Shown here: piece by piece, positions 37,995 to 60,881 of the stretch
Layout: every line of letters starts with the position of its first letter
Position numbering within the stretch: the stretch's first letter is position 1
NCBI GenBank assembly: GCA_020859995.1
Contig: JAJBVE010000023.1
Span: forward strand, 1 to 60,881
Reading direction: 5' to 3'
Length of the DNA stretch: 60,881 nucleotides
DNA from: Clostridiales bacterium
Lineage (GTDB): Bacteria; Bacillota; Clostridia; Lachnospirales; Lachnospiraceae
Notes under the pieces: model-generated
Databases searched by the model: none
The model's input: the letters and a program-made list of their open reading frames with translations, nothing else
Told to the model about the DNA's origin: nothing
Program-made: the position numbers and the translations under genes

Positions 37995-38050
37995 TTCTGT
38001 ATAAGATGAAAAAAATATTCTCAAGTCGATGGATAAATGGAGAAATTACT

Positions 38051-39467: not shown

Positions 39468-39496
39468 AGAGACATAGGATCTCTGACATCGTTTTT
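39468..39496 (+). terminator. Hairpin ending the histidine operon
   Basis: Stem CAGAGA/TCTCTG, then ACATCG and TTTTTT. The same sequence can instead pair over a long distance with 39690-39716. Confidence 0.5.
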
Positions 39497-39511
39497 TGCG
39501 ATTATCGTCTA

Positions 39512-39683
39512 TCCCCGCGAAGCAACGAGCCAAGTAGCCGGAGTCATAAGGGCACTGAGTGCCAGTGGCATCTACCCTTCGTTTCGGTCGGTCCTTAACG
39601 CGTGCCACTGGCACGCAGGACCGTTAAGTGCCCACCGGAGCGAAGCGTAGATCCGTCGGCATAGCCGACACCTTATGACATAG
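39512..39683 (+). repeat. Dispersed intergenic repeat, family 1, long copy with internal insert
   Basis: It carries the same blocks as 15431-15494, but 39544-39650 is extra. The insert contains inverted repeats GGGCACT/AGTGCCC and TGCCAGTGGCA/TGCCACTGGCA, and TCATAAGG inside pairs with CCTTATGA at the distal end. Confidence 0.75.
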
Positions 39684-39834
39684 TATATTCGCCAAAAACG
39701 GTCAGAGTTCTATGTCTTTTTTTGATACTTTGTTTTTTCGTTCATACAAAATGAGTGAACTGTAAATTAATTGTAAAACATATCAATGATATAAACACAG
39801 AAATTAAGTTTATACTTTTTTAATAATTATATGC

Positions 39835-39863
39835 GTGACATCTCACAAATATCGTGCTATACT
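39835..39863 (+). promoter_or_regulatory. Promoter for the giant surface protein operon
   Basis: GTGACA (39835-39840), 17 bases, TATACT (39858-39863). The leader of about 250 nt contains hairpins GGCGAC/GTCGCC (39933-39949) and CCGT/ACGG (near 40017-40032). I could not match it to a c-di-GMP or other known riboswitch. Confidence 0.65.
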
Positions 39864-40120
39864 CGATCCATCACATAATTATTTTTTACATATGATCATA
39901 ATCTGCGCACTCCATCGGGGAGATACTCTTATGGCGACGTTCTGTCGCCGCTTTCCAGATTTTGAAAACAGACATTTGCTGATTTGCTGAAAACTGACAA
40001 CCCGGTCTCTGACCTGCCGTTTATTTTACGGTTATCGATGCCGATTAAGGGTATTTCATCCTTTTTACGCTTATATGGTTTCAATGGGCAGGGACTGCTT
40101 AAAGGAAAAGGAGTATCTTG

Positions 40121-43100
40121 ATGCGAAACAAAAAGAATAGAATCACGCGAACTATAATTGCTGCCATTCTGGCGGTTACCCTGACAGTTTCAGCAGCATA
40201 TCCGGGAAACATTCCGTCGCGGGCGATAGAAATTTCCGCTGACACTGCTGCAGAATCTTTAGACGACATGCTTTTAGAGGAAACGACCGTGGAAGACTCT
40301 GATGCTTCTGATTCAGAAACACCTGCCGCGGAACAATCGGACACGGCTGTTTCCGAGAAACCTGCCCTGGAAGAATCTGAGACAGCTGTTTCTGAAGAGA
40401 GTACGGAAGGAAACGATATAACAGAAACGGAATCTGAATCCGGGAATACGACAGAAAACAATAGGGATGCAGCAGAAAATTCTGAGTCTGATGACGTGCA
40501 GGATGACACAGCGGACGAGCAGGATTCTAAGAGCTCTGTTGAGCCGGAGACAGCCTTTGAGCCGGACACGGAAGTATCTGAGAAGGCAGAGGACGATGAG
40601 TCAGAAACCGCCGAAGATACAGTTTCGTTTGCCGACAAGGAAATCGAAACGGAATGCGTAAACGAGACAGATGCTTTAGCTGAAACAGCGTCAGAAACGC
40701 AATCCGCCGCGCAGGCTGCAGATGATGAAGAAACGGTTCAGATGAATGCACTTCCTTTGTCTGAGGAGGAGGACGAATACAACTTTATCCAGTACCTGAT
40801 GACGGAAGGAGGCTGCCTGAACATCTATTACGCGGATGGAACGGCGGAAGTGCTTGTTCCTGAAGATTTCACGGGCGATTACGACGTGGAAGTAAACATG
40901 CCGGTCAGCGAGGAAGTCAGCTACACGGCCTTCGCGTATGACGGGTATGTCGTTGATACGGTTCTCATCACGGATGAGAGCGGCAACGAACTTTCTTCCT
41001 ATGACGGGAATGGCGGGTCCCAGCTTTCATTTTCAGCCATGGCGAAGTCCGACTACAAGGTCATCGTCAGCGTTTCTTTTAAAGAAAGCGAAATGCCGGA
41101 AGGAGGGCAGGTCATCCGTTTCGTAGGAACCGGAACGGGCAGTATAAAGATTTACTCTGATGAATATATGGAGGATCTGATTGCCACCCTGGATGAGACC
41201 GGAGAAGAATATGATGTGTCCGGCCTTGGGACTACCTTTTATCTGTCTGTGACCGGCGACGAGGATTCCGGGACCACGCCTTACGATGTTGTTATGTATA
41301 AGGACGCAGAAGAGGTTTCCAGCGAGTATATTTACAGTTCCGTGAATGCTGATTTTAATGTGGACGTTACGGTATCGTTCGATGGGGACGGTTACGAGGC
41401 GGCTGAAATTGGCCTGAGGACGATCAGCGAAATCGGGGGCATCCCGGAGCTGCTTGGAGACGGGACTTATTATACATATTACAAAAATCTTATTGCGAAT
41501 AATCTGGAAAACGATATCACAAAAATGACATCCAATCCGGAAGTCAATGATGTCTACGCAACAAGGGCTACTGTAATATCCCATTTTTCACCGACGAACT
41601 GGTTTTCAAGCCAGGCACCTTTGTATGTGTCTTTGATTTTAACGCCTGAAAGCCAGCAACAAAACAGTAATTATGTTTATGACCTGTTGGGAAAAAGAAC
41701 TTATAAGTTATATGAGTGCGCAAGCACTCGACACCAATACTGTCCGAAGTATGGTCAGACCGGGTATCTGTATTTCATTGTTACTGATGTTGATGCTACA
41801 ACAGGAGAGGTCAGCCTTGAACTCTTTTTCCTGAACGATAACGGCACACTCTATCAGCATGCCCATAAAGGCTATGAATCATATACGCTGCCGACAGGTT
41901 CGCTGCAGATTATCAAAAGCTGGGAAAAAAACAGCAAGATGGTTACGATTGATACAGATATCTACAGCCTGAAAACAACCTTTACGATTTATTCGGATAA
42001 AGCGTGCAAGACGGTGGTAACAACGGTTACGACGGATGCGGAGACAGGAAAGGCAACTGTGGATGGCCTGGATGCGGGGACGTATTACATTAAGGAGACA
42101 TCCAGCCCGGATTTGGCCCTGGATGACGATACAGTAGATACGATAACCATCAAAACAGGAGAAACCGCAACCTACAAGAAAACCAATACGCCCGGGAAGG
42201 TACGCCTGTCGCTTAAAAAAGTGTCTAGTGAAGACGAGAAGTATTATTCGACCATGAAAGGTGCGGTTTACGGCGTATTTGCCTCGAAGAAAGAAGCCCA
42301 GGATGCCACCGAGGACGATTATAAGGACACTTGTGTCGCATCCATAGAGATAACCGGGGCCACAACGGTGTGCGATGAATATTTCCTCATCGGTAAGACT
42401 TATTACGTGAAAGAAGTTGTAGTTCCGGACAGCGGGGAATGGGCTCTTTCATCTAAGGTTTATTCGTTTAAGGTTACGTCCGCTGACGCAGTGGAAGTAA
42501 TTAAGGATGACGGGAAAGAATATATCGATGTTTCGGTGACAGTTACAGAAAAGGAGCCTAAATACGTCAAGATCCGGATCCTGAAGAAAACCATCAAGGG
42601 TGTTACGGAAGATGTTGACTACGATTCCGATTACGTAGGATACGAGAACTGGCTGAAAGACATCCCGCAGTACACGCTGAAAGGGGCGCAGATCACTTTC
42701 TGGTGGGATAAAGAAGATGCTGAGAAAGGAAATGAAGATACCGCTATCGGCACAGTTACGGTAAAAGCGGCAGATGATAACGGTGATTATTATTCTACCT
42801 GGCTGTACCTGGATACGACAGAGATTGCCCTTGGCGAAACGAAGACGATCTATTTTAAAGAGACAAGCCCCTCAATTTTCGGCTATGCACTGAATAATAC
42901 CGTTTACAATAAAACTGTTGATTATGACGAGGAAAAAAGCGAGAACGGAGCGGTAGCGCTTGAGTATGAGTTTTCCCTGACAAATTATCCGTCATACGTG
43001 ATTCTTGAAAATTACGTGAAGAAAGTAGGCACGGGCGGAGAACCGGTTGAGGGCGCCATCATAAAAGTTACTTACTACCCGTATGCGTATGGTTCGACGG

Positions 43101-46100
43101 ATATCTATACCTGGTATTTCAAAACAGGCGAGAATGGCAGGATCCTGACAGATTTGGATGAAAATGGGAATCCGCAGGTATTAAATAACAGTACGTATTC
43201 ATCAGATTATATTTATTACAGCAAAAGTGAGGGCAATGAAGGAGTGGCTTACTTCCCTATGGGGTTTTATACGATCCAGGAAGTCTACGCGCCGGATCCG
43301 TATGTGCTGGACGATACTGTTTATTATGGGCAGACAGAGGAATTTACAAATGCGACTGAAACGACCAGAAGGTTAAGGCTGCGCGATGTGGAAAACGATG
43401 TTATTGGCGTGACGCTTACAAATGAAGAATATATTCCGTTTGAATTCATGAAGGTTGACGAGGCTGCTCATGAAGCTTTGGCGGGTGCCGAATACAGGGT
43501 ATATTATTATAAGGGCGCGACAACTACGGCTGAAGCCGCAGCAATGGGCAGCGCGACGAAGACCTGGAGATTCAAAAGCGACAGCGACGGTTATGTCATC
43601 TATGATGCGGACCATAAGATATCCGGAGGCAGCCTGTACACGGATGATAACGGTGATTACGGCGTGCCGTTTGGTCTGATGGTCGTCGTGGAGGTCGTAG
43701 CCCCGCCGAACCATGAAGTGAATAACGATTATTACCTGAGCGCGTTTGATCTATACGCAGCGATGGTAATTAAAGTGGACTCTAAAAATGGTGCCAGGTT
43801 CTATTACAAGAGCAGCTGCGGGGAAACATCCAAAGGCGTCGTGTACCATGAGGATCCGGGCCCCGGTTACGTTACCCTTGTAAAGTCTTCCTCCAATACA
43901 TCCATCACGAACGGCAACACCGGCTATTCTCTGATCGGCGCGGAATACACCGTTTACACGGATTCCGCATGCACGACGGTTGCGAAGAACACGGAAGGCA
44001 GCAACGCTGTTTTGACGGTAAAGGACGAAAATGGAACAACCAATACGCTCAGTATGGCAGCGGGGACGTATTATGTGAAGGAGACAAAGACTCCCGCGGG
44101 ATTCATACAGGACACAGAGGTTTATCCGGTTGAACTGAAATCTACCAATACAGAAAGCAATCCTTACAAACTGAAAGTGTCTGATGTTCCTGTTACCTAT
44201 ACAGCAAAATTGGTTCTTGAAAAGACTACGAAAGATAACACAAAACTTTCAATGGCTGGCGCCATCTTTCAGCTGGATTTTTACGCCGGAACGACCAGCG
44301 CGAGCGGAACCGCTGCCAGAACATGGTATCTGACGAGTAAGGATGCGGGAGAAGGAATTGCAGATGTGCTATTAAGCGAAGACTATCTCGCATCTGGTTA
44401 TTCAAACGATAGTTTTTACACGAAATCTGATAACAGTATTTGCCTCCCGATTGGCTATCTCGTAATTACTGAGATCCAGGCACCGGAAGGCTTCGTGAAA
44501 TCAGATGAGACCGTAACATACACATTCACAACCAGTGGCTGGTCTATCGTCAACAGTACGGGAGGTTCGGTGTCGGGTTCGACAGCTACAATTCCGAACG
44601 AAATGGTTCAGAAAGCAGGCTATATTGATAATACAGAAATAGCAGGCGGGCTTTCTGTCCAGAAGATTGATTACATGCTCGGCAGCAGCAATGCCCATGG
44701 AGATACAGATCTTTCCGGCGCGGAATTTACAATCGTAAATGCGACAGGAAGAACAGTTGATAATAAGGATGAAACAGAAATTCCGACATCCGGGTTGTCT
44801 GGCACAAACGTAACCTATGCGGACGTCCTTGCGGCTGCGGCAACAAGTACTATGCAGGTGATTACGACGGACGCGGGTGGATTTGCGACAACGGATATGG
44901 ATGGTGATGAGGTAGATGGCAGCTTGCCATTTGGTACATATTACGTGATCGAGACAAAAGCAGCGACCGGTTATCTCTTAAATGATACTTGGGTAGGCCG
45001 TATTGTTGTGGACGAAAATGGAAATCGCGCAGTCTATCCCGCACAGACAATCCAGGATTCCAAGTCCGGGCAGGAGACAGTGACACAGCAGATTTATCTT
45101 GGCGGGCTCTCTGTTCAGAAAATTGATGCTCTAAACGGCACGAATACGCCGACCGGAAGTTTGTCACTTGAAGGCGCGGAGCTTACCATCGTAAACGCTT
45201 CCGCAAATGCTGCGGAAAACGCATCCGGCACGGTAATCCCGACATCCGGGTTGTCCGGCAGCGTTACTTATGAGCAGGTGCTTGCTGCGGCAGAAACAAG
45301 TACGATGCAGGTAATCACTACAGATGACAGCGGGTATGCTGCAACTGGTTCCGGTGATCTCCCGTACGGTACCTACTACGTAATTGAGACCAAGGCTCCT
45401 GATGGTTACGAGGTGAATACTACGTGGGTAGGAAAAGTGGAAGTTGACAAAAACGGAATTATTAATGCGGCTGAAACAGATGTAGAGGATATGCCGACGA
45501 GAGGCGGTTTATCCGTGCAGAAGATTGATTACATGCTTGGCAGCAATGCAAAGCACGGAGATACCGATCTTTCCGATGCGGTATTTACCATCGTGAACGC
45601 TTCTGCCAGAACGACAACCAATGCGGCGGGGAATAAAGTCGCTACAACCGGCTTGACGGACGAGACTGCCACTTATGCGAAGATAAAGGAATATGTTGAC
45701 AGCAGTTCCGGCGATACGACTTACATCATGCAGACCATCACAACGGATGAAAGCGGTTTTGCAACCACCGACACGGATGGTGATGGCGAAGACTACAGCC
45801 TGCCTTACGGCACGTATTACGTGATTGAGACACAGGCGGCGGCCGGGTACCTTTTAAACGAGACTTGGGTAGGACGCATCGATGTGAGCAAAAAAGGTGT
45901 GGTTTATGCGGCCCAGACAATCCAGGATTCTGAATCAGGACAGGAAACAACTGCACAGCAGATCTATCTTGGCGGACTTTCCGTACAGAAGATTGATTAC
46001 ATGCTCGATCGCAATGCGGATCACGGTGATACCGATCTTTCCGGAGCTGAGTTTACCATCATCAACGCATCTGATGCGGTGGCGGTCAATAAGGATGGGG

Positions 46101-52100: not shown

Positions 52101-55100
52101 CGTACAATGAGGAACTGAATTCCGTGGACGGCACGGTGGATCTGGTTTATACGCTGGATTCCTCCAAAATCCAGGGCATCGAAGTGGTTGTGTTTGAGAA
52201 GCTTTATCAGGACGCAACCTACACGCCGGAAACCAATCCGGAAGAAGTCCCGGAGGAAGACCTCGTAAACGAGCATTCGGATATCGAGGACGAAAGCCAA
52301 AGTGTGAGTGAGGTTTCCATCCATACCACAGCAGTGGACACCACGACAGGAGATCATGTAGGAAGCGTACCGGACGGCACAGATATTACATCCATCCGTG
52401 ACGAGGTGAACCTAGCGGGACTTGTCTCCGGTATGGAGTACACCATTGACGGCGTACTGGTATCCCTTGGGGACTCTGATCTGTCCGCTGGAAAGATTTA
52501 CTACTTGAAAACGGACGGGACCCTGACGGAGAGTCGTGAGGAAGCTTACACAGAAACCCTGACCTTTACAGCAGAAGAAGCATCGGAGACTTATTACCTG
52601 AACTTTGCAATCAATTCCGACAAGGTACAGGGGAAGAGCCTGACGGTGTTTGAGAATATTTATCATAATGACACACTGATCAGTTCGCACCCGGCAGGGG
52701 ACGGCGATGGCTGGGACGAAGAATCCCTGGCAGAACAGACCGTTGTCTACCCGGCAGGGAAGACAAACGCGACAGATACAGCAACGGATGAGCATTTGTC
52801 CCTGGCTGATACAAACCGTACAATCGTTGACCGTGTGTACTTCGAAAACCTCCTTGTGGGGCAGGAATACACCGTCACCGGACAGCTGGTTTATAAGGAA
52901 GCTTTCACGGACGCAAACGGTGTAAGCCATAAAGCCGGCGAGGCGGTAACAGAGTCTGTGGCAGTAAGCTTCACGGCTTCGGAAGACCTGACGGCGGCAT
53001 TGTATGAGGATGGCAGCGAAGCAGCGGTTGACTCCCTGAATGCGACAACCCTTGCGGATGGCCAGACAGTCATCAGCGGCTACGTGTCCATCAGCTTCAC
53101 AGTAAATGCTTCCAGACTGGCCGGGGCAACGCTTGTGGCGTTCGAGACCTTCCGCCATGACGGGACGGATATTTATACACATAACAACCTTGAGGATCTG
53201 CCGCAGACTATCCGTATCCCAAAGATCGGGACAACGGCGAGCGTGAATGATCTTGACGAGACGGCTATTTATGACGCAGACGGAAACTATATTGATATCA
53301 CCATCACCGACACGGTTACTTACGAGAACCTGTGGACGGCGGATGAGCTTGCGTCTATGGCTGAACAGGCGAAATACATCGTTTACCTGGACGGCACCGT
53401 CCGCGAGCAGGAAAACGTAATCTACACAGTATCTGAGGATGCGGTTTATATGCTGAAAGGCGTACTGATGGACAAGGGGACCGGCGAAGCGCTGGTTAAC
53501 TCCAACGGCAGCATCTATACAGTATACTCAGAACCGTTTACCCCGGATTCCCCAAATGGCACGCAGGACGTAAAATTCGATATCAGTGCCGGTGAATTTC
53601 TTGGTGAGGACAGCGTAAGCCTGCTTGCGGGAGCGACTCTGGTGATTTACGAGGATCTGTACCTTGCAGTGACGAAGGAGGAAGCGGTTGAAGAGAAGCA
53701 TGTGGCGGAACACCACGACATCAATGACGTGGAGCAGGATATCCGAATCCCGGATGGACGCACTCATGCGGTGGACGGAACACCTGGCAAAACGTTGCAT
53801 ACAGAAGATGTAATCAAGGCACTAAATGAGGAGCATGCAGGGGAATCCAGTACTGCACACGAGGCAGAAGCGCAAGCAAGTATGACAATAACAGATCTTG
53901 TCGCGTACGAAAATCTGCATGGATGTACGACCTATACGATAACGGGAACCCTTCAGACTGTCACAGCGTTTGATTCTGAGGGAAAGCCAATTACGTGGGA
54001 AGCCGCAAGGGATGATGACGGAAACGTGATTACTGCGACGGCGGAATTCACGACCAGCGGAAGCTATGATGATTCTGTAAGCGGAACAGTATCGCTCACG
54101 TTCACATTTCCAGGCCTGACACTTGCAGGTAAGACATTGGTGGCATTTGAGAGGATAAGCAGGGACAATGTGACAGTATTTGCGCATGCGGATATCACGG
54201 ATGAAGCACAGACAATTTATGTGCCGGAAATAGGTACGCATGCCTCTGATGCGGAAAACGGTCTGTCTATGTCCCTTGCTGACAAAAATACAATCATTCT
54301 GGATGAAGTGATCTATGAGAATCTTGAAAATGGCAAGACCTATACCATCAACGCAGCGCTTTATAACCGCGAGACGGGCGCGCTGATTGATGGTACGGAG
54401 GTAACCGGCACGTTTATGGCAGGCAAAGAAGGGCAGTATGTGATTCCAGAAGGCGTTGACGACACTACACTTTCCGATGATATTTCCCCGACAGCGGCTG
54501 TGAACGGCTGCAGGGCAAGCGGCACGGTTGTAGTAGCAATTCCTGTTGACACATCCATTCTTTCAGGAAAATCTATAGTTGCGTTCGAGGCAGTTCTGGC
54601 TGCGGATACGGATGGAAATCTGAAAGAAGTTGCGATGCACAAGAATCTTGAAGACGAAGAACAGACGGTACAGATTCCGCTTCTGGGCACCATGGCAGCC
54701 ATTGACGGCGAGAAGAGCGTGATTACGAGCGGGGATGTGGTCATCACCGATACTGTAAGCTATTCGAACCTGATTGCCGGAATGACCTATAAGGTATATG
54801 GTTCGCTGACGGATAAAGAGACCGGAGAAGCTGTTAAAGTGACCGCGGAAACGGAATTTACAGCAGAAGAACCTGACGGCACGGCAGAAATGACCTTTAC
54901 ATTCGAAGCATCCGGTTACGAGGATTACAGACTTGTAGCGTTTGAGAATCTCGTAGTTGTCATGGATGATGGGACAGAATACACGGTTGCCTGTCATGAA
55001 GATCTGGAAGATGAATATCAGACGGTGGAAATACTGGCGCCTCAGGTTGAAATCAGCAAACAGGATATTACGACCAGCGAGGAACTACCGGGAGCGACGC

Positions 55101-55429
55101 TTATTGTGAAGGATAGTGACGGGAACGAGATAGAACAGTGGATATCAACGGATGAACCGCATACCTTCCGCATCCCTGTTGGGGCCTATACACTGACTGA
55201 GATCACGGCTCCAGATGGTTATGAGGTGGCCGAAACCATCGCATTTGAAATTATTGATGGCGATGTACTGACTTCTGTTGTGATGTACGATACACCGAAG
55301 GGCACGACGACCAGTACTGGCTCTGCGCCGAAAACGGGCGACTGGTTCCGCTACGCAGTATCGATCGGGATCGTAGCGCTGGGAATCCTGCTTCTTGTAT
55401 GGCACAAAAGAAGATTCCAGGCCAGATGA
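40121..55429 (+). CDS. Giant sortase-anchored surface protein with SpaA/Cna-B and VaFE repeats
   Basis: A predicted adhesin or stalk of 5,102 residues. Order: signal peptide (about 1-35); acidic Ser/Glu/Thr-rich stretch (40-220); a unique N-terminal region to about 595; about 13 SpaA/Cna-B-type modules (595-2410), five of them near-identical; 17 VaFE modules (2415-4970); one last SpaA module; a Thr-rich linker; the sorting signal APKTG (5069-5073), a hydrophobic helix and a basic tail. SpaA modules commonly carry Lys-Asn isopeptide bonds, and VaFE modules Thr-Gln ester bonds, so the protein should be rigid and protease-resistant. ATG 40121 has AAAGGAG 7 bases upstream. A class B sortase follows. 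The ligand is unknown; no clear thioester CxQ motif is visible. Confidence 0.93.
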   Translation: MRNKKNRITRTIIAAILAVTLTVSAAYPGNIPSRAIEISADTAAESLDDMLLEETTVEDSDASDSETPAAEQSDTAVSEKPALEESETAVSEESTEGNDITETESESGNTTENNRDAAENSESDDVQDDTADEQDSKSSVEPETAFEPDTEVSEKAEDDESETAEDTVSFADKEIETECVNETDALAETASETQSAAQAADDEETVQMNALPLSEEEDEYNFIQYLMTEGGCLNIYYADGTAEVLVPEDFTGDYDVEVNMPVSEEVSYTAFAYDGYVVDTVLITDESGNELSSYDGNGGSQLSFSAMAKSDYKVIVSVSFKESEMPEGGQVIRFVGTGTGSIKIYSDEYMEDLIATLDETGEEYDVSGLGTTFYLSVTGDEDSGTTPYDVVMYKDAEEVSSEYIYSSVNADFNVDVTVSFDGDGYEAAEIGLRTISEIGGIPELLGDGTYYTYYKNLIANNLENDITKMTSNPEVNDVYATRATVISHFSPTNWFSSQAPLYVSLILTPESQQQNSNYVYDLLGKRTYKLYECASTRHQYCPKYGQTGYLYFIVTDVDATTGEVSLELFFLNDNGTLYQHAHKGYESYTLPTGSLQIIKSWEKNSKMVTIDTDIYSLKTTFTIYSDKACKTVVTTVTTDAETGKATVDGLDAGTYYIKETSSPDLALDDDTVDTITIKTGETATYKKTNTPGKVRLSLKKVSSEDEKYYSTMKGAVYGVFASKKEAQDATEDDYKDTCVASIEITGATTVCDEYFLIGKTYYVKEVVVPDSGEWALSSKVYSFKVTSADAVEVIKDDGKEYIDVSVTVTEKEPKYVKIRILKKTIKGVTEDVDYDSDYVGYENWLKDIPQYTLKGAQITFWWDKEDAEKGNEDTAIGTVTVKAADDNGDYYSTWLYLDTTEIALGETKTIYFKETSPSIFGYALNNTVYNKTVDYDEEKSENGAVALEYEFSLTNYPSYVILENYVKKVGTGGEPVEGAIIKVTYYPYAYGSTDIYTWYFKTGENGRILTDLDENGNPQVLNNSTYSSDYIYYSKSEGNEGVAYFPMGFYTIQEVYAPDPYVLDDTVYYGQTEEFTNATETTRRLRLRDVENDVIGVTLTNEEYIPFEFMKVDEAAHEALAGAEYRVYYYKGATTTAEAAAMGSATKTWRFKSDSDGYVIYDADHKISGGSLYTDDNGDYGVPFGLMVVVEVVAPPNHEVNNDYYLSAFDLYAAMVIKVDSKNGARFYYKSSCGETSKGVVYHEDPGPGYVTLVKSSSNTSITNGNTGYSLIGAEYTVYTDSACTTVAKNTEGSNAVLTVKDENGTTNTLSMAAGTYYVKETKTPAGFIQDTEVYPVELKSTNTESNPYKLKVSDVPVTYTAKLVLEKTTKDNTKLSMAGAIFQLDFYAGTTSASGTAARTWYLTSKDAGEGIADVLLSEDYLASGYSNDSFYTKSDNSICLPIGYLVITEIQAPEGFVKSDETVTYTFTTSGWSIVNSTGGSVSGSTATIPNEMVQKAGYIDNTEIAGGLSVQKIDYMLGSSNAHGDTDLSGAEFTIVNATGRTVDNKDETEIPTSGLSGTNVTYADVLAAAATSTMQVITTDAGGFATTDMDGDEVDGSLPFGTYYVIETKAATGYLLNDTWVGRIVVDENGNRAVYPAQTIQDSKSGQETVTQQIYLGGLSVQKIDALNGTNTPTGSLSLEGAELTIVNASANAAENASGTVIPTSGLSGSVTYEQVLAAAETSTMQVITTDDSGYAATGSGDLPYGTYYVIETKAPDGYEVNTTWVGKVEVDKNGIINAAETDVEDMPTRGGLSVQKIDYMLGSNAKHGDTDLSDAVFTIVNASARTTTNAAGNKVATTGLTDETATYAKIKEYVDSSSGDTTYIMQTITTDESGFATTDTDGDGEDYSLPYGTYYVIETQAAAGYLLNETWVGRIDVSKKGVVYAAQTIQDSESGQETTAQQIYLGGLSVQKIDYMLDRNADHGDTDLSGAEFTIINASDAVAVNKDGDEIPTSGLSGASVTYADAKVSIESGSVMQVITTKKDGSATTGTKDLPFGTYYVIETKAATGYFLNESWVGRIEVRKNGVVYAAETIQDEDSGDETTAQRIYRSGISLVKVDLEMQEGIEQGEAYFAGAEFTIINASDALVENADGVEIPSAKSKISSSPDYVELRALADDGSYTVQVITTDENGLAATGINDLPYGTYYVIETKSSYGYWIDEDFIGLAVVREDSLNLALGTYSDSGDSYFIDINDTSSNLASTVDQQVRRKNLSFIKVDIDGNYKSYIPFLITAIAFDDQGNEVELESHVIVSNAYGYVDTSRTHSANTNGFDQYVVDGKVTAEGEALLKEASAWGVWFQGNGKMDTADMTVTDSYGALYTCYYRITELQCEDNSDLSENLLNSDLIYLYNDTGDLTELLSNNAQMYVYHPLVDTEIVLTSAASDVQSGTQVVSANESVEVNDEVSYTHVSSDHTYRMETQFVDIMAGNKVLTILGTNDGDAAVSDDGLWVTKEFQPEKKSGTNNTYGDITMSALLNTSGLYGHTIVAVDYLYQYVNIDSTTGYWVLVAKHEDYTDDDQMLYVPDIHTNAVDGLTESRVGAADEGDYIVDTVTYTNLASKTNYVLLMYVADAETGEAVVTNADGSPFTVKARIMSNSTAAMISGTKTMPYYYIDSSEYSGRTLVAVETLYLADEDDQPYGDPVVESTSIIDEDETIRYPVVHTSASDSLTADDVGTSSETAIVYDEVTIENVVFDDNDLDGQYTYTVTGTLVYQQDFTDADGVSHTAGEEVETLDGTLDTVTITSDASGNATFMYADGTTAKGSVKITAYGQNAAKTIGGDAADNSYAVDSTAAIATVTVELAYVVDSSKLEGGTVVVFEDLYHNDAKVAGHADITDESQSVHYPEVKTSAADDSTLDDVGTTQENAMITDTVTLTNLVPGRTYTVSGKLVNQSDGSDVIVDGQTVTQTAEITVGEGTITAANGEQTTVTAYDETYHTVSGTVDLTFTFDATSLAGETVVVFEDLVHNDVVVASHADITDEGQTIHFPEVHTTAADDATGDDVGALREEATITDTVILKNLVPGHTYTVSGKLVDQETGEDFLVNGETVTRSAVITVGEGTITAEGGEVTEVTAYDEEHNSVDGKIELVFAFDASALADQTIVVFEDLEHNGMTVATHADITDESQTVHYPEVKTSAVDDSTTDDVGAIREEATVTDTVILKNLVPGRTYTVSGKLVDQETGEDFLVNGEAVTQTAEITVTEDGEIVAANGEVTQVTEYDEEHNSVDGTVQLVFIFDAGALAGETVVVFEDLVHNNVTVASHADITDESQTVHFPEVKTSVADDVTIDDVGAIRAEASITDTVILSNLVPGREYTVKGRLVNQEDGSDFLVNDEAVTQETTITVTEDGKIVASNGEVTTVTEYDVDHNSVSGTVELVFTFDASSLEGETAVVFEDLYHNNVRVAWHNDLKDEGQTVHFPEIHTTAADGYTEDSVATVSGEAVIVDTVIYSNLIPGREYTVSGVLMNKETGETILDAEGNAVTAERTFTAGVVEDGITAEVDEEMNSVSGTIDITFTFDGSLLEDTTAVAFEDLVHNGITVTTHSDITDEDETVHFPKIRTSAIDGNVGDEAGVTGKTRIVDTVSLWNLETGMTYTVNGVLMNKNTGEKLLVNGETVAQSMTITVNAGGTVTAENGGTVGNVVYDANMNSVDCTVDLVYTLDASALAGATTVVFEDLVHNGVTVASHAVITDLGQTIHFPEIHTTATDLNTSGHVGTVKGTAVVQDLVYFTNLVVGKEYTLTGTLMNRKTGLPFLDEAGAEITASVTFTAGTESSGNYTVSAYHEDNNSVDGTYLMTFTLDSSLLEGKTVVAFEYLYHNDVEVTTHTDLGDDEQSVHYPDIHTTAVDYNTGDHVGTIWGALINFARSLFGQETEEDAKQVITDTVALSNLVPGKTYVVSGKLYNATESLATGEDTPLVIDGEEIAQAVTITVSEDGKSITAADGSATSVTAYNEELNSVDGTVDLVYTLDSSKIQGIEVVVFEKLYQDATYTPETNPEEVPEEDLVNEHSDIEDESQSVSEVSIHTTAVDTTTGDHVGSVPDGTDITSIRDEVNLAGLVSGMEYTIDGVLVSLGDSDLSAGKIYYLKTDGTLTESREEAYTETLTFTAEEASETYYLNFAINSDKVQGKSLTVFENIYHNDTLISSHPAGDGDGWDEESLAEQTVVYPAGKTNATDTATDEHLSLADTNRTIVDRVYFENLLVGQEYTVTGQLVYKEAFTDANGVSHKAGEAVTESVAVSFTASEDLTAALYEDGSEAAVDSLNATTLADGQTVISGYVSISFTVNASRLAGATLVAFETFRHDGTDIYTHNNLEDLPQTIRIPKIGTTASVNDLDETAIYDADGNYIDITITDTVTYENLWTADELASMAEQAKYIVYLDGTVREQENVIYTVSEDAVYMLKGVLMDKGTGEALVNSNGSIYTVYSEPFTPDSPNGTQDVKFDISAGEFLGEDSVSLLAGATLVIYEDLYLAVTKEEAVEEKHVAEHHDINDVEQDIRIPDGRTHAVDGTPGKTLHTEDVIKALNEEHAGESSTAHEAEAQASMTITDLVAYENLHGCTTYTITGTLQTVTAFDSEGKPITWEAARDDDGNVITATAEFTTSGSYDDSVSGTVSLTFTFPGLTLAGKTLVAFERISRDNVTVFAHADITDEAQTIYVPEIGTHASDAENGLSMSLADKNTIILDEVIYENLENGKTYTINAALYNRETGALIDGTEVTGTFMAGKEGQYVIPEGVDDTTLSDDISPTAAVNGCRASGTVVVAIPVDTSILSGKSIVAFEAVLAADTDGNLKEVAMHKNLEDEEQTVQIPLLGTMAAIDGEKSVITSGDVVITDTVSYSNLIAGMTYKVYGSLTDKETGEAVKVTAETEFTAEEPDGTAEMTFTFEASGYEDYRLVAFENLVVVMDDGTEYTVACHEDLEDEYQTVEILAPQVEISKQDITTSEELPGATLIVKDSDGNEIEQWISTDEPHTFRIPVGAYTLTEITAPDGYEVAETIAFEIIDGDVLTSVVMYDTPKGTTTSTGSAPKTGDWFRYAVSIGIVALGILLLVWHKRRFQAR
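41900..47340 (+). repeat. SpaA/Cna-B-type module array of the giant protein
   Basis: Modules start near 41900, 42196, 42560, 42990, 43435, 43862, 44200, 44645, 45104, 45504, 45973, 46408 and 46885. Each has a hydrophobic strand with a Lys (for example GSLQIIK, VQKID, FEFMKVD) and a later GTYYxxE or equivalent whose Glu is the expected catalytic acid of the isopeptide bond. Confidence 0.75.
44645..46860 (+). repeat. Five near-identical SpaA modules (GGLSVQKID type)
   Basis: Five units of about 130-155 codons begin GGLSVQKID or SGISLVKVD and share GDTDLSGAEFTI(V/I)NAS, PTSGLSG, MQVITTD and PFGTYYVIETKAATGY. Similarity extends to the DNA, so the block arose by recent tandem duplication. Confidence 0.85.
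47355..55035 (+). repeat. Array of 17 VaFE (Thr-Gln ester bond) modules
   Basis: Each module of about 150 residues starts with (I/V)(H/K/G)T(T/S/N/H)A, continues ITDTV..NLVPGxxYTVSGxL and ends L.GxT(V/L)V(V/A)FEDLxHN followed by DxxQT(V/I)xxP. The Thr and the final Gln are the predicted crosslink pair. In two modules (Glu near 48217 and near 50901) the Gln is replaced by Glu. Confidence 0.85.
55325..55426 (+). other. Cell wall sorting signal of the giant protein
   Basis: APKTG, then DW, a hydrophobic helix (YAVSIGIVALGILLLVW) and the basic tail HKRRFQAR. The motif lacks the Leu of LPXTG and resembles the (S/P)PXTG signals used by class B sortases of Clostridioides difficile. Confidence 0.85.
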
Positions 55430-55450
55430 GGAGGAACCAAACAGAAAAAT

Positions 55451-55475
55451 GACAGGGGACGTCAAAAGCGTTCCC
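55451..55475 (+). other. Hairpin between the giant protein gene and its sortase
   Basis: A 9-bp stem CAGGGGACG/CGTTCCCTG (one G-T pair) with a 7-base loop and no T run. It may reduce sortase expression relative to the substrate or stabilise the mRNA. Confidence 0.5.
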
Positions 55476-55500
55476 TGCCGTTAAAATCGAATTGGGAGGG

Positions 55501-56352
55501 ATGAGAAGAGAAATGATTCAAAAGCTCGCATGGCTTCTGATCCTGGCTGGAACTTTCCTTGCGCTCTGGATTTATACAGATGATCAGCATGGGGTGGATG
55601 AGTACGAAGTAATTTCTGATTATTATACTGATACGACAGTACCGCCGGCGGCAGATTCAGACGAACAGACGGTTACAGACAGACTGAAAGCCATAGATAA
55701 GCAGGCAGTTACCATTCCGGAGGACGCGCCAGAGAGATTGTCAATTGACTGGGAGGCGCTATCAGACGAGTATCCAGGCATCGTTGGGTGGATTTTTCTT
55801 CCGGCGTTGGAAATCTCGTATCCGGTCATGCAGGCGGGGGATAATGAGTATTATCTGCACCGGGATCCGTCAGAAAATTACCTGTACGCAGGCAGTATAT
55901 TCATGGATTGTTCCTGCGGTGCTGACCTTACAAACCTCAACACGGTCTTATATGGACATAATATGCGAAACGGAACCATGTTTGGGCGGCTGAAGAAATA
56001 CAACAATACGGAAATCCTGGAGTCATGCCCGTATTTCTGGTATAGTACGCCGAATCAGGATTATCTCCTGCGTATTTTTTCGATCCATGTAGTATCCGTT
56101 AATGGGGAAGCGTACCTGATCTCATTTGAAGACAGTGAGACATATGCAGGATGGGTTTCTGACATGCTTGCCGGCTCGGAAATGGATACAGGCGTGGAGA
56201 CTGTGCCGAAAGACAGCCGTGTGATGACGCTCTCGACCTGTAATAACAACGCTTTGACCCGGCAGATTGTACAGGGATATATTCTGTGGCAGGGGGATCC
56301 TGTGGAAAGTGCGGGTTTTTGTTCTATGACTTCATCTGAAAAAACTGCCTGA
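55501..56352 (+). CDS. Class B sortase
   Basis: A membrane-anchored transpeptidase that should cleave the APKTG signal of the upstream giant protein and attach it to peptidoglycan. The 283-residue product has an N-terminal membrane segment (LAWLLILAGTFLALWIY), the class B core GWIFLPALEISYPVMQAGDNEYYLHRD-like region, catalytic His153 in YGHNMRNGTMFG, Cys247 in TLSTC and Arg254 in TRQIVQG. GGGAGGG lies just before ATG 55501, too close; ATG 55513 is 12 bases away and may be the true start. It lies 71 bp after the giant gene. Confidence 0.93.
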   Translation: MRREMIQKLAWLLILAGTFLALWIYTDDQHGVDEYEVISDYYTDTTVPPAADSDEQTVTDRLKAIDKQAVTIPEDAPERLSIDWEALSDEYPGIVGWIFLPALEISYPVMQAGDNEYYLHRDPSENYLYAGSIFMDCSCGADLTNLNTVLYGHNMRNGTMFGRLKKYNNTEILESCPYFWYSTPNQDYLLRIFSIHVVSVNGEAYLISFEDSETYAGWVSDMLAGSEMDTGVETVPKDSRVMTLSTCNNNALTRQIVQGYILWQGDPVESAGFCSMTSSEKTA

Positions 56353-56517
56353 AAGGTACTTTTCGATAAAATTTCAACCGTCTGGTATGGATTTACCTTC
56401 TGATAAAGGCGGATATATCCGCAGAAAAGGATGCCTGCCTCGCGCTTGCAGCGCGGTGGAAAGTATTGTGATTCTGTCATTTTGAAAGGAGGAGCGGGGA
56501 AGCCCCGCAAAAAAATT
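56353..56517 (+). promoter_or_regulatory. Structured leader of the Cys-repeat protein gene
   Basis: Three hairpin-forming sequences: the palindrome GCGGATATATCCGC (56409-56422), CGCGCTTGCAGCGCG (56441-56455), and GCGGGG-AAG-CCCCGC (56494-56508). The last lies between the Shine-Dalgarno AAAGGAGG (56485-56492) and the ATG (56518). The linear spacing is 25 bases, but about 10 if the hairpin forms. Confidence 0.6.
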
Positions 56518-58959
56518 ATGATTAAGAAAATAAAGTATTTATTTTTCAGCTTGTTGTCTGCTCTGATGTTGATGGGAGCTATGACAGTATCAGCAGATGA
56601 TTGTGACCATGACTGGGAGTATTCTGATAAAATTGCGGCCACATGCAACGATCAGGGTTATACCCTTTATACATGCTCAATCTGCGGCAAGACAAAGAAA
56701 GAAGACTACGTGAACGCGCTCGGGCATGACTATGAATGGAAAGCGAACAACAACGGCACGCATACGGGCACCTGTACGAGGTGCGGGAAACAGGTGAGCG
56801 AATATTGTTCTGAATATTATAAGGATTACGTAACAAAACCGACCTGCGTGGAAAAAGGCTATACATCCCATATCTGCAGCAAGTGCGGCTATGTACTGGT
56901 GGATACTTATCTGGATCCGCTTGGTCATAATTACGTGTGGACGAACAACGGCGACGGTACCTGCTCCGGTATCTGTACCAGGGACAGCTCTCATGTAGTC
57001 ACACAGTCCCATGACTATGAGACAATAGTTGTTGATCCGACCTGCACAACAAGCGGATATACAGCTCATATCTGCAAGGACTGCAGTTATGAGGTCGATG
57101 ACGACTATGTGGCCGCGACAGGTCATGATTACGCGTACACGTCCAATGGCAATGGCACGCATACCGGTGTCTGCAAGAACAACCCATCCCATACGACAAA
57201 AGCGAACTGCACGCATGAGACAACGGTGGTCGCGCCAACCTGTGAGGAACAGGGATATACGCTGCATACCTGTACGGTTTGTGGTTATTCTTACAAAGAC
57301 AATTACAAGGCAGCTCTGGGACATTCTCACGTATATACATCCAGTAATGACGGTTATCATTATGTACAGTGTGAGAATGATCCTTCTGAAAATTACCGTG
57401 AAAAATGCAGTTATACGGAGACCGTAATCGCGCCGACCTGTGAGGAGGCGGGCTATACTCTTTATAAATGCACGGAGTGCGGCTACAGTTATAGGGGTAA
57501 TTATGTCGCGGCCCTCGGCCATGATTATACCTGGGTGTCCGCGAATGATGGAACCCATGTAGGTACCTGCAATAACGATTCAAGTCACATTGCGCGGGAG
57601 CAGTGTAATTATATTACAGAAACGACCGCGGCTACAGCAACCAGCTCCGGATATACAACTCACATCTGCAGCGTCTGCGGGTACAGCTATACAGACGGCT
57701 ATGTCGCTCCACTCGGCCATGATTACAAGTACACGGATCTGGGAAATGGGACGCACCGCGTAACAGACAATAATGACAGCTCTTTAAATTACATCGAAAA
57801 CTGCACTTATACAGAAACGGTTGTAAACCCGACCTGCACTAGTCAGGGCTATACGCTTCATACCTGTCAGAAGTGCGGAGCATCTTATAAAGATAAGTAT
57901 ACGGCAGCTCTTGGGCATAATTATGTATATACATCTGTTGATGAGGCTGCGCACAAAGGAATATGCGAAAACGACTCCAGCCATACCGTCATTGAAGCGC
58001 ATACGGAAGTAACAAAAGTAGTAGCTCCGACCTGTACATCGAAAGGCTATACGCTTCACACCTGCACAGTCTGCGGTTATTCCTATAAAGATACTTATAA
58101 AGCGAAGCTTGGCCACAATTATGTATTCAAATCGAATAAAGACGGCACACACACGAAAACCTGTCAGAACGACAGCAGCCATGTGAAAACATCTAACTGT
58201 ACGTACACCAAGAAAGTAGTAGCGCCAACCTGCACGAAGAAGGGGTATACGGTCTATACCTGTAAATACTGCGGCTACAGCTATAAAGGAAATTATACAG
58301 CAAAGCTTGGGCATACCTATAAATGGGTCATTGACAAGGAAGCGCAGGTTGGAATCGCGGGATCCAAACACAAAGAGTGTACGGTCTGCGGAAAGAAACT
58401 GGCTTCTGTAGAGATTCCGGCAAAGAAGGCTGGCACGCTGCTCCCGAGGGTGACGGACGCGAATGAATCCCAGCTGGTAATCAAGTGGAATTCCCTGACA
58501 GGCGCGACCAAATATGTTGTTTACGGTACAACCTGCGGAGATTACGAGTTCAAAAAGATTACCTCTACGACAGAAACTTCTACGGTTGTGACAGGGTTGG
58601 AAAAAGGAACATATTACAAGTATTACGTCGTAGCCTATAACGGAAAAGTAAAAATCCGTACATCCGAGCTCATCCACGCAACCACTAAAGGCGGAGTAAA
58701 TACGAACCCGACAAAAATCACGGTATCAAAGGATGCTTATACGCTGAAGGTTGGAGCAACCAGGCAGTTAAAGGCTACCGTTACTGTCGGAACCTATGAA
58801 GATTATCATACCACTTTAGTGAGATATAAGAGTTCCAACACTTCTGTCGCGACAGTATCCGGCGCGGGTGTGGTTACGGCGAAGAAGAAAGGAACCTGTA
58901 AGATTTATGTCTATACATTAAACGGCAAGTATACAAAAGTGACAATTACAGTGAAATAA
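56518..58959 (+). CDS. Secreted protein with about a dozen CxxC repeats, an Fn3-like and an Ig-like domain
   Basis: An 813-residue secreted protein. Signal peptide (YLFFSLLSALMLMGAMTVSA), then repeats of about 55 residues built on PTCxxxGYTxHxCxxCGYSYKDxYxAALGHxY (residues about 22-640), each with one CxxC plus another Cys and a His, suggesting metal-binding knuckles or disulfides. Next come an Fn3-like domain (NESQLVIKWNSLTGATKYVVYG) and a C-terminal Big_2 Ig-like domain (ITVSKDAYTLKVGATRQL). There is no sorting signal or anchor. Such repeats are common in Clostridia surface proteins of unknown function. The ATG is the only in-frame start near the signal peptide. Confidence 0.85.
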   Translation: MIKKIKYLFFSLLSALMLMGAMTVSADDCDHDWEYSDKIAATCNDQGYTLYTCSICGKTKKEDYVNALGHDYEWKANNNGTHTGTCTRCGKQVSEYCSEYYKDYVTKPTCVEKGYTSHICSKCGYVLVDTYLDPLGHNYVWTNNGDGTCSGICTRDSSHVVTQSHDYETIVVDPTCTTSGYTAHICKDCSYEVDDDYVAATGHDYAYTSNGNGTHTGVCKNNPSHTTKANCTHETTVVAPTCEEQGYTLHTCTVCGYSYKDNYKAALGHSHVYTSSNDGYHYVQCENDPSENYREKCSYTETVIAPTCEEAGYTLYKCTECGYSYRGNYVAALGHDYTWVSANDGTHVGTCNNDSSHIAREQCNYITETTAATATSSGYTTHICSVCGYSYTDGYVAPLGHDYKYTDLGNGTHRVTDNNDSSLNYIENCTYTETVVNPTCTSQGYTLHTCQKCGASYKDKYTAALGHNYVYTSVDEAAHKGICENDSSHTVIEAHTEVTKVVAPTCTSKGYTLHTCTVCGYSYKDTYKAKLGHNYVFKSNKDGTHTKTCQNDSSHVKTSNCTYTKKVVAPTCTKKGYTVYTCKYCGYSYKGNYTAKLGHTYKWVIDKEAQVGIAGSKHKECTVCGKKLASVEIPAKKAGTLLPRVTDANESQLVIKWNSLTGATKYVVYGTTCGDYEFKKITSTTETSTVVTGLEKGTYYKYYVVAYNGKVKIRTSELIHATTKGGVNTNPTKITVSKDAYTLKVGATRQLKATVTVGTYEDYHTTLVRYKSSNTSVATVSGAGVVTAKKKGTCKIYVYTLNGKYTKVTITVK

Positions 58960-59011
58960 CCGGGACGCAGCTTCTGGAGCATGTAAAGGAAAGGAGAGGG
59001 AAATGGATGCC

Positions 59012-59055
59012 ATGCCATCAGGCATGCATCCGCCCCGGCGGCGTGGATTCTGATC
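59012..59055 (+). other. Hairpins between Shine-Dalgarno and lipoprotein start
   Basis: ATGCC/GGCAT (59012-59025) and CCCGGCGG with CCGCCGGG (8 bp, roughly 59034-59067). Both lie after the Shine-Dalgarno AAGGAGAGGG (58991-59000) and before the signal-peptide ATG at 59082. Confidence 0.45.
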
Positions 59056-59081
59056 TCCGCCGGGTCATCCCGTATACAATT

Positions 59082-60365
59082 ATGAGACGGAACTATATTT
59101 TAGCAGCATGCATGGCAGTGATAACCGCGGCCGTATTGTCCGGCTGTTCAAACACGGCAGAAATGCAGGTGAATACAGAAACAGAGTTACTGTCAGAGAC
59201 CGGGACGGCAGCCGCGATTGATGAAATTAAGAATGCAACGGAAGCGGCAGCCGATGCCGGGACAAAGAATGAGACGGCTGCTGTGACCGCGGAGCTGACA
59301 GAGGAAACCGGGGCGACACCGGAATCAGTGATAGAAAATGAGAATCAGGAAAACGCGGGCTTTGATGTTCAGCTGGGAAATTACACCGGCTTTACCTATA
59401 CGCGCACATACACGGAGCCGGACGTGAACGCCGAAATGGAGAGTATCCTGGGGTATTATATCACCTACGAGGAAAGCGGCGCGGTCGCCGAAGGCGATTA
59501 CATCCTGCTTTCGTTTACCGGCACGGTAGACGGGGAAGAAGTCGAAGGCATTGCCGAGACAGATTCTGAGATTGTTGTCGGTGAGGGCACTTATGGCGGA
59601 GATTTTGAGGAGAAGCTTGTCGGGCTGCCTGTAGGTGAAACGTCCGAGATTGAGGTTTCGTACCCTGATGATTACTGGCAGGAAGACCTGGCTGGCAATA
59701 CTGCGGTGATGACAGTGACGGTATCCGGAAGGGCGGATGCGCCGGCGCTGACGGATGAATGGGTTTCTGAGAATACCGGTTACGAGTCTGTAGAAGCGTT
59801 CCGGGAGTATGTAAAGTCCTACCTGGTGCCGCAGGCGGAAGAGGAAGCGGATTCCGCCGCGATTTACAGTCTCCTGGAAGATTTGTACGCGGTAAGTTCA
59901 GCAAGAGTAAGCGAAGAGGAACTCGCGGAACGGGTAGAAGAAGAAGCTGCCTATTATGAGGCTTACGCGTCAGATCTAGGGATGGATTTCGATGATTATG
60001 TCGAGGCATATTATGGGACAGATACCGATTCTTTTATTGAGATGCTTGAGGAAGAACTTGAGGAAACCATTGCCCAGGAAAAGATTGTTGACACTTTCAT
60101 TGAAGCGGAAGAGATCAATGTTTCTGAGGAGGCATTCGCGGATTACCTCAATACAGAAGCTGCCATTTATGGATATGACAGCGGAGAGGATCTGTATGAA
60201 GAGATGGACGAAATGGGCTATGGCACTTACATAAAGCAGCTGTTTAAAGAATATCAGGCAGGCATGGCTTTGATGGAAATCAGTGAGCAAATCGATCTGG
60301 AGGAAACCGAAGAAATGGAAACGGAACAGGATACAGAATCCATTACGGTCGGGATGAGTGATTAA
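59082..60365 (+). CDS. Trigger factor-like lipoprotein with FKBP-type peptidyl-prolyl isomerase domain
   Basis: A 427-residue lipoprotein. The lipobox LSGC puts the lipidated Cys at residue 22, after MRRNYILAACMAVITAAV. An acidic Ala/Thr/Glu linker follows to about residue 90, then an FKBP-like domain (AEGDYILLSFTGTVDGEEVEG, VVGEGTYGGDFEEKLVGLPVGETSEIEVSYPDDY) and a helical trigger-factor C-terminal domain (residues about 225-415). Cytosolic trigger factor is a ribosome-bound chaperone; this one lacks the ribosome-binding domain and should sit outside the membrane. Its place in the surface cluster suggests folding of exported partners. An in-frame ATG at 59007 is closer to the binding site but would give an overlong signal peptide. 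Confidence 0.85.
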   Translation: MRRNYILAACMAVITAAVLSGCSNTAEMQVNTETELLSETGTAAAIDEIKNATEAAADAGTKNETAAVTAELTEETGATPESVIENENQENAGFDVQLGNYTGFTYTRTYTEPDVNAEMESILGYYITYEESGAVAEGDYILLSFTGTVDGEEVEGIAETDSEIVVGEGTYGGDFEEKLVGLPVGETSEIEVSYPDDYWQEDLAGNTAVMTVTVSGRADAPALTDEWVSENTGYESVEAFREYVKSYLVPQAEEEADSAAIYSLLEDLYAVSSARVSEEELAERVEEEAAYYEAYASDLGMDFDDYVEAYYGTDTDSFIEMLEEELEETIAQEKIVDTFIEAEEINVSEEAFADYLNTEAAIYGYDSGEDLYEEMDEMGYGTYIKQLFKEYQAGMALMEISEQIDLEETEEMETEQDTESITVGMSD

Positions 60366-60376
60366 GGGAGGGCAAT

Positions 60377-60881
60377 ATGATTGATAAATTCAGGCATGGA
60401 TTCCGCCTGGCCCTGATGCTTGTACTGGTGTGCGCCGTGTTTACTGCCGGACGTCCGATAACCGCCCGGGCGGCGGCACAGACAAGCGTGAAGGTACTGT
60501 CAGTTGGGAATTCGTATACAGTTTCCGGATATACAAAAGTGACGTCCGGAACAAAGTCCGTAGCGACCACGCAAAAAAAGTCGTCAAAAAAATATACGGT
60601 GAAAGCCGTAAAAACAGGACGGACGACACTGTGCTGTTATAACAAAAGCGGCAAACTGGTGAAAAAGATTTATCTGCTTGCCACGGATGACAATTCTCTG
60701 TCATATGACAATACTTCGCTGACATTAATAAACGGGAAGACAAAGACGATATCAGCTGCGGCTCCGTCCGGCTGTTCGGTAGTCTATTCCAGCTCGAAAA
60801 AATCTATTGCGGCGGTAAACAGCAATGGTAAAATAACAGCGAAAAAAGCCGGGACAGCGCAGATTACAGTAAAGGTTACCT
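60377..60881 (+). CDS. Secreted Ig-like (Big_2) domain protein, cut by the window end
   Basis: The frame is open to the last base. It has a signal peptide (FRLALMLVLVCAVFTAG, then ARAAA), then Ig-like sequence ending SKKSIAAVNSNGKITAKKAGTAQITVKV, a Big_2-type motif. A first, less clear unit precedes it (VGNSYTVSGYTKV...VKTGRTTLCCY). GGGAGGG lies 4 bases before the ATG, 11 bp after the lipoprotein stop. Total length and anchoring are unknown because the 3' part is missing. Confidence 0.8.
   Translation, partial: MIDKFRHGFRLALMLVLVCAVFTAGRPITARAAAQTSVKVLSVGNSYTVSGYTKVTSGTKSVATTQKKSSKKYTVKAVKTGRTTLCCYNKSGKLVKKIYLLATDDNSLSYDNTSLTLINGKTKTISAAAPSGCSVVYSSSKKSIAAVNSNGKITAKKAGTAQITVKVT

Follow-up and report, generated by a model that had tools for sequence, protein, structure and literature searches.

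A candidate surface-display slot after hisIE, with constant control and exchangeable cargo, in a Lachnospiraceae genome that houses a giant wall protein there

Results

The 60,881-nucleotide contig JAJBVE010000023.1 of a Clostridiales bacterium of the Lachnospiraceae (assembly GCA_020859995.1), analysed over its whole length and hereafter called the window, ends in a run of genes for a very large wall protein (giant 1), a class B-type sortase, a secreted Cys-repeat protein, an exported trigger-factor-like (TF-like) lipoprotein and a secreted Ig-like protein. Our best reading, at a probability of roughly 0.58, is that the site after hisIE in which these genes stand is a surface-display slot whose control is constant and whose cargo is exchangeable. 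We propose constant control because one leader element precedes three different types of cassette at this site. Checks of open reading frames (ORFs) and domains placed all five genes on the plus strand at the positions reported by an earlier reading of the letters alone (the original prediction); the functions ascribed to the cluster throughout are what we infer from its sequence. We found no paper on this hisIE display locus in the open-licence literature. The window is the whole of contig C173 of the source genome, G000, and the cluster is therefore truncated at the contig end. Other G numbers denote genomes of relatives, L numbers fetched loci, and P0002, P0003 and P0004 are protein labels (the P0003 search is that for the Cys-repeat protein; P0004 is the TF-like lipoprotein). 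The assemblies are partly metagenome-derived, with repeats that may be collapsed and contigs that may be broken.

Searching 47 genomes of the genus with P0002, P0003, the N-terminal part of giant 1, hisIE and TIGR03960, we found the flanking genes in 45 (hisIE) and 43 (TIGR03960) and retrieved one or both sides of the slot from 22 genomes including G000. Display genes occupy it in 13 of these 22. Giant 1 and its relatives fill the slot in G000, G042, G028, G021, G027, G014 and G013, with the provisos that the G021 contig ends in the head, the G013 giant lies in two frames, G027 has no visible upstream side, and the G028 slot is placed by inference, its hisIE standing at the end of another contig (L123). 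In G040, G037, G010, G036 and G015 the slot holds proteins ending in PKTGD; Pfam identifies Cna_B domains in the three that were scanned (G040, G015, G010), and those of G037 and G036 are related to these at 57-93% identity. In G039 a sortase gene shares the slot with genes for a pilin-type LPXTG protein and a SpaA protein. The slots of G008 and G033 are empty, the hisIE and TIGR03960 matches of G025 lie 57 bp apart, and other genes stand in the slot of G043, G012, G011, G004, G003, G002 and G016. The TIGR03960 gene is inverted relative to hisIE in six genomes (G037, G010, G036, G015, G014, G013). For the six slot giants whose downstream side is visible, genes for SrtB, the Cys-repeat protein and the TF-like protein are present only in G000 and G042: core genes directly follow the giants of G027, G014 and G013, with none of the three between, and in G028 another protein comes next before the contig ends. 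The full set thus recurs after hisIE in G042, but the system cannot be called general: giants that regularly stand without the lipoprotein and Cys-repeat genes were what the original prediction had named as its refutation, and for these genes G027, G014 and G013 show just that.

Upstream, intergenic comparison revealed the same arrangement at all 12 occupied slots with upstream DNA: a TGACA...TATA-type core followed by a 60-62-nucleotide element. This element precedes giant 1 or its relatives in six (G000, G042, G028, G021, G014 and G013, only the head being visible in G021), PKTGD proteins in the five genomes named above, and the pilin-type locus of G039. We regard the core as promoter-like because it is conserved across slots, and not on the strength of a promoter scan. 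In the hairpin of the element, two-sided changes occur in four of six pairs, and 91.7% of cells pair; for the two helices together the figure is 95.8%, against 28-40% when the partners are slid. Four of the five covariation measures were reached by 0 of 500 shuffles, among them the number of cells with changes on both sides (11, shuffle mean 3.9), that of further pair types (13, shuffle mean 7.8) and the covariation score (0.293, shuffle mean 0.144). A second hairpin, shifted by hand, did no better than shuffles and was rejected. A covariance model of the element recovered its 12 training sites and nothing else in 61 sources (973,516 bases); another 63 (817,587 bases) yielded two matches at chance level (E = 0.42 and 0.66). 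Over all 124 sources, 1.79 Mb in total, no match beyond the training sites fell below E = 0.4. The sources comprise the window and 123 of the 184 loci, some of them overlapping; empty slots, slots with other contents and further adhesin loci are among them. Against Rfam 15, window positions 39300-40200 and L104, L110, L067 and L111 were without a match at E values up to 1.

From these observations we tentatively propose, with the odds against us, that the element represents a cis-regulatory leader RNA of a new class. Fixed behind a conserved promoter at a single slot, it would give common control to whichever cassette recombines in, the G000/G042 cassette adding a catalytically dead TF chaperone that services two giants. 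It is less likely, though it deserves weight, that the element acts as a DNA operator or terminator-like repeat and not as a regulatory RNA: the closing stem is invariant and hence silent on pairing, and the alignment consists of 12 sequences from one genus, two of them (G010 and G036) nearly identical, in which kinship alone can exceed shuffles without any structure. Against a DNA element, the compensatory changes hold only in the named register and fail in the slides, and the element lies downstream of the promoter-like core at 12 of 12 sites.

Giant 1 comprises, in order, a signal peptide, an acidic spacer, a head, SpaA domains, a T-Q/VaFE stalk, a last SpaA domain, the APKTGD sorting signal, a transmembrane helix and a basic tail. 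Scanned in two pieces with a 200-residue overlap, it gave 8 and 1 Pfam SpaA stretches, 2 and 16 Pfam TQ matches and 2 and 18 NCBIfam VaFE matches in the first and second piece, respectively, and a VaFE profile built from its own repeats identified 17 domains. An NCBIfam SpaH/EbpB pilin-family match runs across the SpaA domains, the last of which resembles solved CnaB2/SpyCatcher-type domains; two of the VaFE repeats had no solved relative by phmmer. At E values up to 0.01 only SpaA and TQ were matched in ORF residues 1-2700, with no Pfam thioester domain among them. The isopeptide and ester crosslinks foreseen in the original prediction have their basis in domain families (SpaA and TQ/VaFE) and motifs, the bonds themselves being predicted. 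Among proteins of 0.55-1.75 times the giant's length, the head (residues 200-660) matched one other, at 29% identity over 29%. A locus of the same genome open at both ends (L122; G000:C22, 1-4760) encodes 1,586 residues 79.5% identical to giant 1 ORF residues 1577-3169 and represents either a second copy of giant 1 or a strain variant.

The sortase exceeds the PF04203 cut-off (42.7 bits against 26.6) and its best solved relatives are SrtB-type, which upholds the predicted class B assignment, with the NCBI equivalog TIGR03064 below its cut-off (137.7 bits against 153.75). The locus holds only this SrtB-type sortase and no polymerising class C sortase, a composition other than that of a sortase-assembled pilus. 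The sorting signal of giant 1 reads APKTGD in G000 and VPKTGD in G042, each with a transmembrane segment and basic tail; the residue before PKTG is thus A or V, versus S or P in the (S/P)PXTG of Clostridioides difficile type. Over its C-terminal 160 residues giant 1 is 76% identical to its G042 counterpart; the next relatives, at 52-66% identity, mostly form the C-terminal ends of large SpaA proteins encoded at other places in the genus. On three contigs (G042:C106, G039:C1, G040:C204) a SpaA giant, an Ig-like protein and SrtB occur together; Pfam identifies ParA, ParB, RepA_N, a helicase, PrgI and a TraG-type protein as neighbours on G039:C1, and by eye the other two contigs carry genes similar to these transfer and partition neighbours. 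Island SrtB proteins are mostly 46-50% identical to the SrtB of the window, and Ig-like N-termini with signal peptide are 47% and 55% identical in two pairs. SrtB, Ig-like protein and a VaFE giant are also together on G014:C16; SrtB accompanies a related giant tail on G015:C113, G031:C150 and G037:C40, where the Ig-like gene was not detected, and an Ig-like gene accompanies a giant near the contig end on G033:C44 and G037:C82, where SrtB was not detected. In the slot giants without SrtB (G027, G028, G014, G013) the VaFE stalk comes last, a terminal SpaA domain is missing and the signal is VKTGD, VQTGD or VKTED. This likeness of SrtB, Ig-like protein and giant C-terminus to the island cassettes favours the pairing of the sortase with giant 1 as its substrate. 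In support of the slot reading as a whole we also count that same-genome giants on contigs C77 and C80 carry LPQTG, C77 together with two other sortases. The overall pattern is consistent with, but does not prove, a swap of the anchor domain along with its sortase.

Described as self-contained in the original prediction, the locus in fact runs past the window. The last 20 bases of the window are, in an exact overlap, the first 20 of contig C125 reversed, and C125 carries the rest of an Ig-like gene, then a second giant (giant 2, 5,331 residues, rich in SpaA and DUF5979 domains), then a TetR-like gene for which every NCBIfam match falls below cut-off. C125 probably continues C173 directly, and the Ig-like gene of the window with it, to make a two-giant locus. 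The gene of the downstream flank, TIGR03960, lies on a third contig (C148), 234 bp from the contig end. In G042 a single contig carries hisIE, giant 1 (3,746 residues, with VPKTGD at its end), SrtB, giant 2, the Cys-repeat, TF-like, Ig-like and TetR-like genes, a further ORF and TIGR03960; giant 2 sits elsewhere in the order than in G000, and the gene set is shared. Giant 2 of G042 lies in two frames through a single frame change at L065 5931-5959, of biological or assembly origin. Aligned identities between the two genomes are 66% (SrtB), 75% (Cys-repeat), 53% (TF-like) and 57% (Ig-like part), and nonsynonymous and synonymous divergence (dN/dS) are 0.22/1.43 for SrtB and 0.41/2.46 for the TF-like protein, with dS saturated for the Cys-repeat and Ig-like proteins. 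A TIGR03960 tree joins G000, G042 and G027 in one clade with support 1.0, and G000 with G042 at only 0.56. Counting contigs C77, C80, C173 and C125, G000 encodes at least four giants near 5,000 residues: those on C77 (L071/L072; 5,053 residues, open at the contig end) and C80 (L070; 4,891 residues) both carry LPQTGS signals, and C77 also has two LPATGS proteins beside its two sortases.

The Cys-repeat protein, in which no sorting signal was seen, is near full length in 2 of the 47 genus genomes. A search of 5.8 billion proteins returned 8 further relatives (P0007-P0014) covering at least 92% of its length at 40-75% identity, whose gene neighbourhoods lie outside our view, a caveat on the apparent rarity of the protein. 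The P0003 scan of genome contigs gave 6 loci, full length in G042 only, near-identical records of the own genome being possibly omitted. With P0008 and P0011 as queries, only G000 matched among 397 family genomes (E<=1e-50) and among 391 class genomes (E<=1e-60), at most two candidates being scored per listed genome. Relatives of the Cys-repeat protein also occur on IMG/VR viral contigs (13 loci, L153-L165), and a 342-residue protein in the G003 slot has a weak Cys-repeat match.

The TF-like lipoprotein matches FKBP_C and Trigger_C above cut-off and TIGR00115 below it (137 bits against 180.2), the last match starting only at model position 106; PF05697, the ribosome-binding domain at the N-terminus of trigger factor, was not matched in the lipoprotein. 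Pocket residues are conserved in FKBP prolyl isomerases and are here taken to be those invariant in the paralogues. All three pocket stretches (F, FI[DEP]GFE and F) are kept by 34 of 34 canonical paralogues, a count that excludes L131, labelled A in the TF tree, which is P0004 itself. The corresponding stretches read V, YGGDFE and M in P0004 and V, YTEDLE and I in its G042 orthologue, with all three changed. A second class of exported TF-like proteins (19 rows) has lost the first two stretches and kept the last F; the P0004/G042 pair adjoins this degenerate class in a FastTree phylogeny (support 0.94) and forms a third class beside the two paralogue classes of the genus. Because the FKBP pocket is degenerate in both orthologues, a catalytic foldase role is doubtful, and the protein is most likely, judging by its residues, a membrane-tethered holdase rather than a prolyl isomerase. 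A P0004 search of 79 genomes that include the 47 found the locus type in 2 of the 47, and at E<=1e-35 among 392 genomes of the order only G000 matched, at most four candidates being scored per listed genome. By eye, many canonical loci lie at a region resembling yigZ-murI to gmk-holB, and genes of the second, degenerate-pocket lipoprotein class (L136-L145, L147-L150) are mostly divergent from a cca-like gene.

These results support in part the original prediction of a defined display system, which would give the giant a surface foldase of its own, the TF-like lipoprotein, and a structural partner, the Cys-repeat protein. The complete set does co-occur in G000 and G042, with dN below dS for SrtB and the TF-like protein and with small gaps that hold no plus-strand terminator-like site; the set is nonetheless absent beside the giants of G027, G014 and G013 and confined to 2 of 47 genus genomes, and a promoter-like match (56254-56283) precedes the Cys-repeat gene, in a scan that had fewer sites than shuffles. 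Loss of the pocket residues in both orthologues makes the dedicated foldase the doubtful part, and by eye the G042 orthologue has no clear lipobox. Neighbourhoods elsewhere are divided: a sorting-signal protein lies near the TF gene in 2 of 21 other TF-lipoprotein loci, namely a VaFE protein 0.6 kb away and divergent in G026 and a 1,761-residue VQTGD protein 2.2 kb from a canonical TF-lipoprotein gene in G008:C55 (L097 116-5398), and in G006, G007 and G046 (L132, L133, L134) about 5 kb or less separates TF-like genes from a different, more distant SrtB-type sortase, with no giant in the fetched stretch. The matching G038 locus, however, lacks the G026 VaFE gene, no membrane-anchored sorting-signal protein was seen in the other 19 of 21 loci, and we rejected neighbourhood as a link to a dedicated foldase. 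We consider such a system unlikely. Uncharacterised long proteins stand 5-8 kb from the TF gene in L086 and L095.

Two further features of the window lie outside the cassette. Parts of the strongly folding, repeat-like stretch upstream of the promoter-like site (Table 1) recur by blastn at window positions 15429-15494, in G042 (L066 16120-16215) and in G027 (L069 2836-2963); two DNA patterns drawn from it matched 0 of 184 loci. At 2031-3281 the window encodes a protein with a glucan-binding repeat match and a weak match to a SleB-like cortex-lytic domain.

Table 1. Features of the hisIE slot in the window
Feature	Position	Strand	Remarks
hisIE with HisF/HisA-like N-terminal part	38006..39328	+	upstream flank of slot; match in 45/47 genus genomes
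Strongly folding repeat-like intergenic stretch	39480..39735	+	fold z-score -7.7; 0/200 shuffles as low
Promoter-like site (GTGACA, 17 nt, TATACT, TG before)	39835..39863	+	core conserved in 12 aligned slots
Structured leader, 62 nt	39900..39961	+	invariant ends AATCTG/CAGATT able to pair; covarying hairpin, conserved TCTG in loop region
Giant 1, wall protein of 5,102 residues	40121..55429	+	ORF 40118-55429, likely start ATG 40121
Giant 1 head	~40715-42097	+	
Giant 1 T-Q/VaFE stalk	~47387-54955	+	
Giant 1 sorting signal APKTGD	55325-55342	+	
Class B-type (SrtB-type) sortase	55492..56352	+	N-terminal membrane segment; YGHN and LSTC motifs by eye
Secreted Cys-repeat protein	56431..58959	+	likely start ~56518 by eye; C-terminal fn3 and Big_2 domains
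Exported TF-like lipoprotein, degenerate FKBP pocket	59007..60365	+	likely start ~59083; lipobox LSGC by eye
Ig-like (Big_2) secreted protein, 5' part	60377..60881	+	ORF cut by window end

Discussion

Under the reading we prefer, a constant promoter and a structured leader RNA would drive whichever cassette resides in the slot between hisIE and the TIGR03960 radical-SAM block, and the cargo of G000 would be a two-giant cassette. Giant 1 would be exported and fold into a chain of SpaA and T-Q domains that crosslink themselves, by isopeptide and ester bonds respectively, and the adjacent SrtB would cleave APKTGD and join the protein to the cell wall, where it may serve adhesion. The cassette on conjugative-type islands in this genus is homologous to SrtB, the Ig-like protein and the C-terminal anchor of the giant. 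The two remaining proteins, Cys-repeat and TF-like, would be add-ons of the G000/G042 lineage, and the TF-like lipoprotein would act as a membrane-tethered holdase.

Several observations weigh against this reading. The downstream side of the slot in G000 is placed by synteny only, and no sorting signal was seen in giant 2 of G000, which leaves its attachment unexplained. As G000 has 14 sortase matches, giant 1 may be the substrate of a different sortase. PKTGD is also found at the end of slot proteins in five genomes whose slot has no SrtB, the seven giants or tails of island type that share a contig with an SrtB read VKTGD, VNTGD or VQTGD and not PKTGD, and terminal-type SpaA domains are common, with some, weaker, match in 44 of the 47 genus genomes. 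As for control, the promoter scan found 2 sites against 2.4 in shuffles, the closing stem of the leader never varies, and the number of leader pairs with two-sided changes (4, shuffle mean 2.6) was reached by 83 of 500 shuffles. Least probable of the alternatives we weighed is a stranded remnant of a conjugative island whose surface genes once served mating-pair contact, to which the island-like SrtB, Ig-like protein and giant tail and the perhaps assembly-derived split of G042 giant 2 would be congenial, but which sits poorly with the conserved upstream leader, with open frames of 5,102 and 5,331 residues, with dN below dS for SrtB and the TF-like protein, and with five genes that include none for transfer or partition.

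If the slot reading is correct, giant adhesins are exchanged behind constant control, and adhesive identity can change by recombination while regulation stays. It would also supply a concrete, testable sortase-substrate pair, tie chromosomal adhesins to conjugative-island cassettes, and offer a candidate regulatory RNA that lends itself to direct screening for its signal.

Close known systems include the island cassettes of RepA_N/PrgI type within the same genus, which share with the hisIE locus a related SrtB, an Ig-like protein and the giant C-terminus; the locus differs from them in having no transfer genes among its five, in the added Cys-repeat and TF-like proteins, in its hisIE site and in PKTGD. 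PrsA-type foldases provide a further comparison class. These and the exported TF-like lipoproteins resemble the locus protein in its exported FKBP and TF C-terminal domains and predicted membrane tether, and differ from it in that the FKBP-pocket residues are lost here.

Giant adhesins of the TIE type, exemplified by a 7,651-residue protein of Mobiluncus mulieris in a report that also covers Cpe0147 of C. perfringens (PMC10619420), are likewise single chains of Ig-like domains with isopeptide and ester crosslink domains and a C-terminal sorting signal. Giant 1 differs from them in its sorting motif, in the absence of a Pfam thioester match, and in being encoded with SrtB and probably with a second giant. 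The substrates of C. difficile SrtB carry (S/P)PXTG (PMC4155245), and the class B-type sortase and P-K-T-G signal described here are similar; unlike that system, the signal here is APKTGD, the genome has 14 sortase matches, and the sortase gene adjoins its presumed substrate, with a specificity that is predicted. Finally, the TIE adhesin of plasmid pLS20, which is needed for efficient conjugation (PMC8092201), differs from giant 1 in having a thioester domain and no sortase signal, and resembles it in its Cna-type stalk and its tie to a mobile element.

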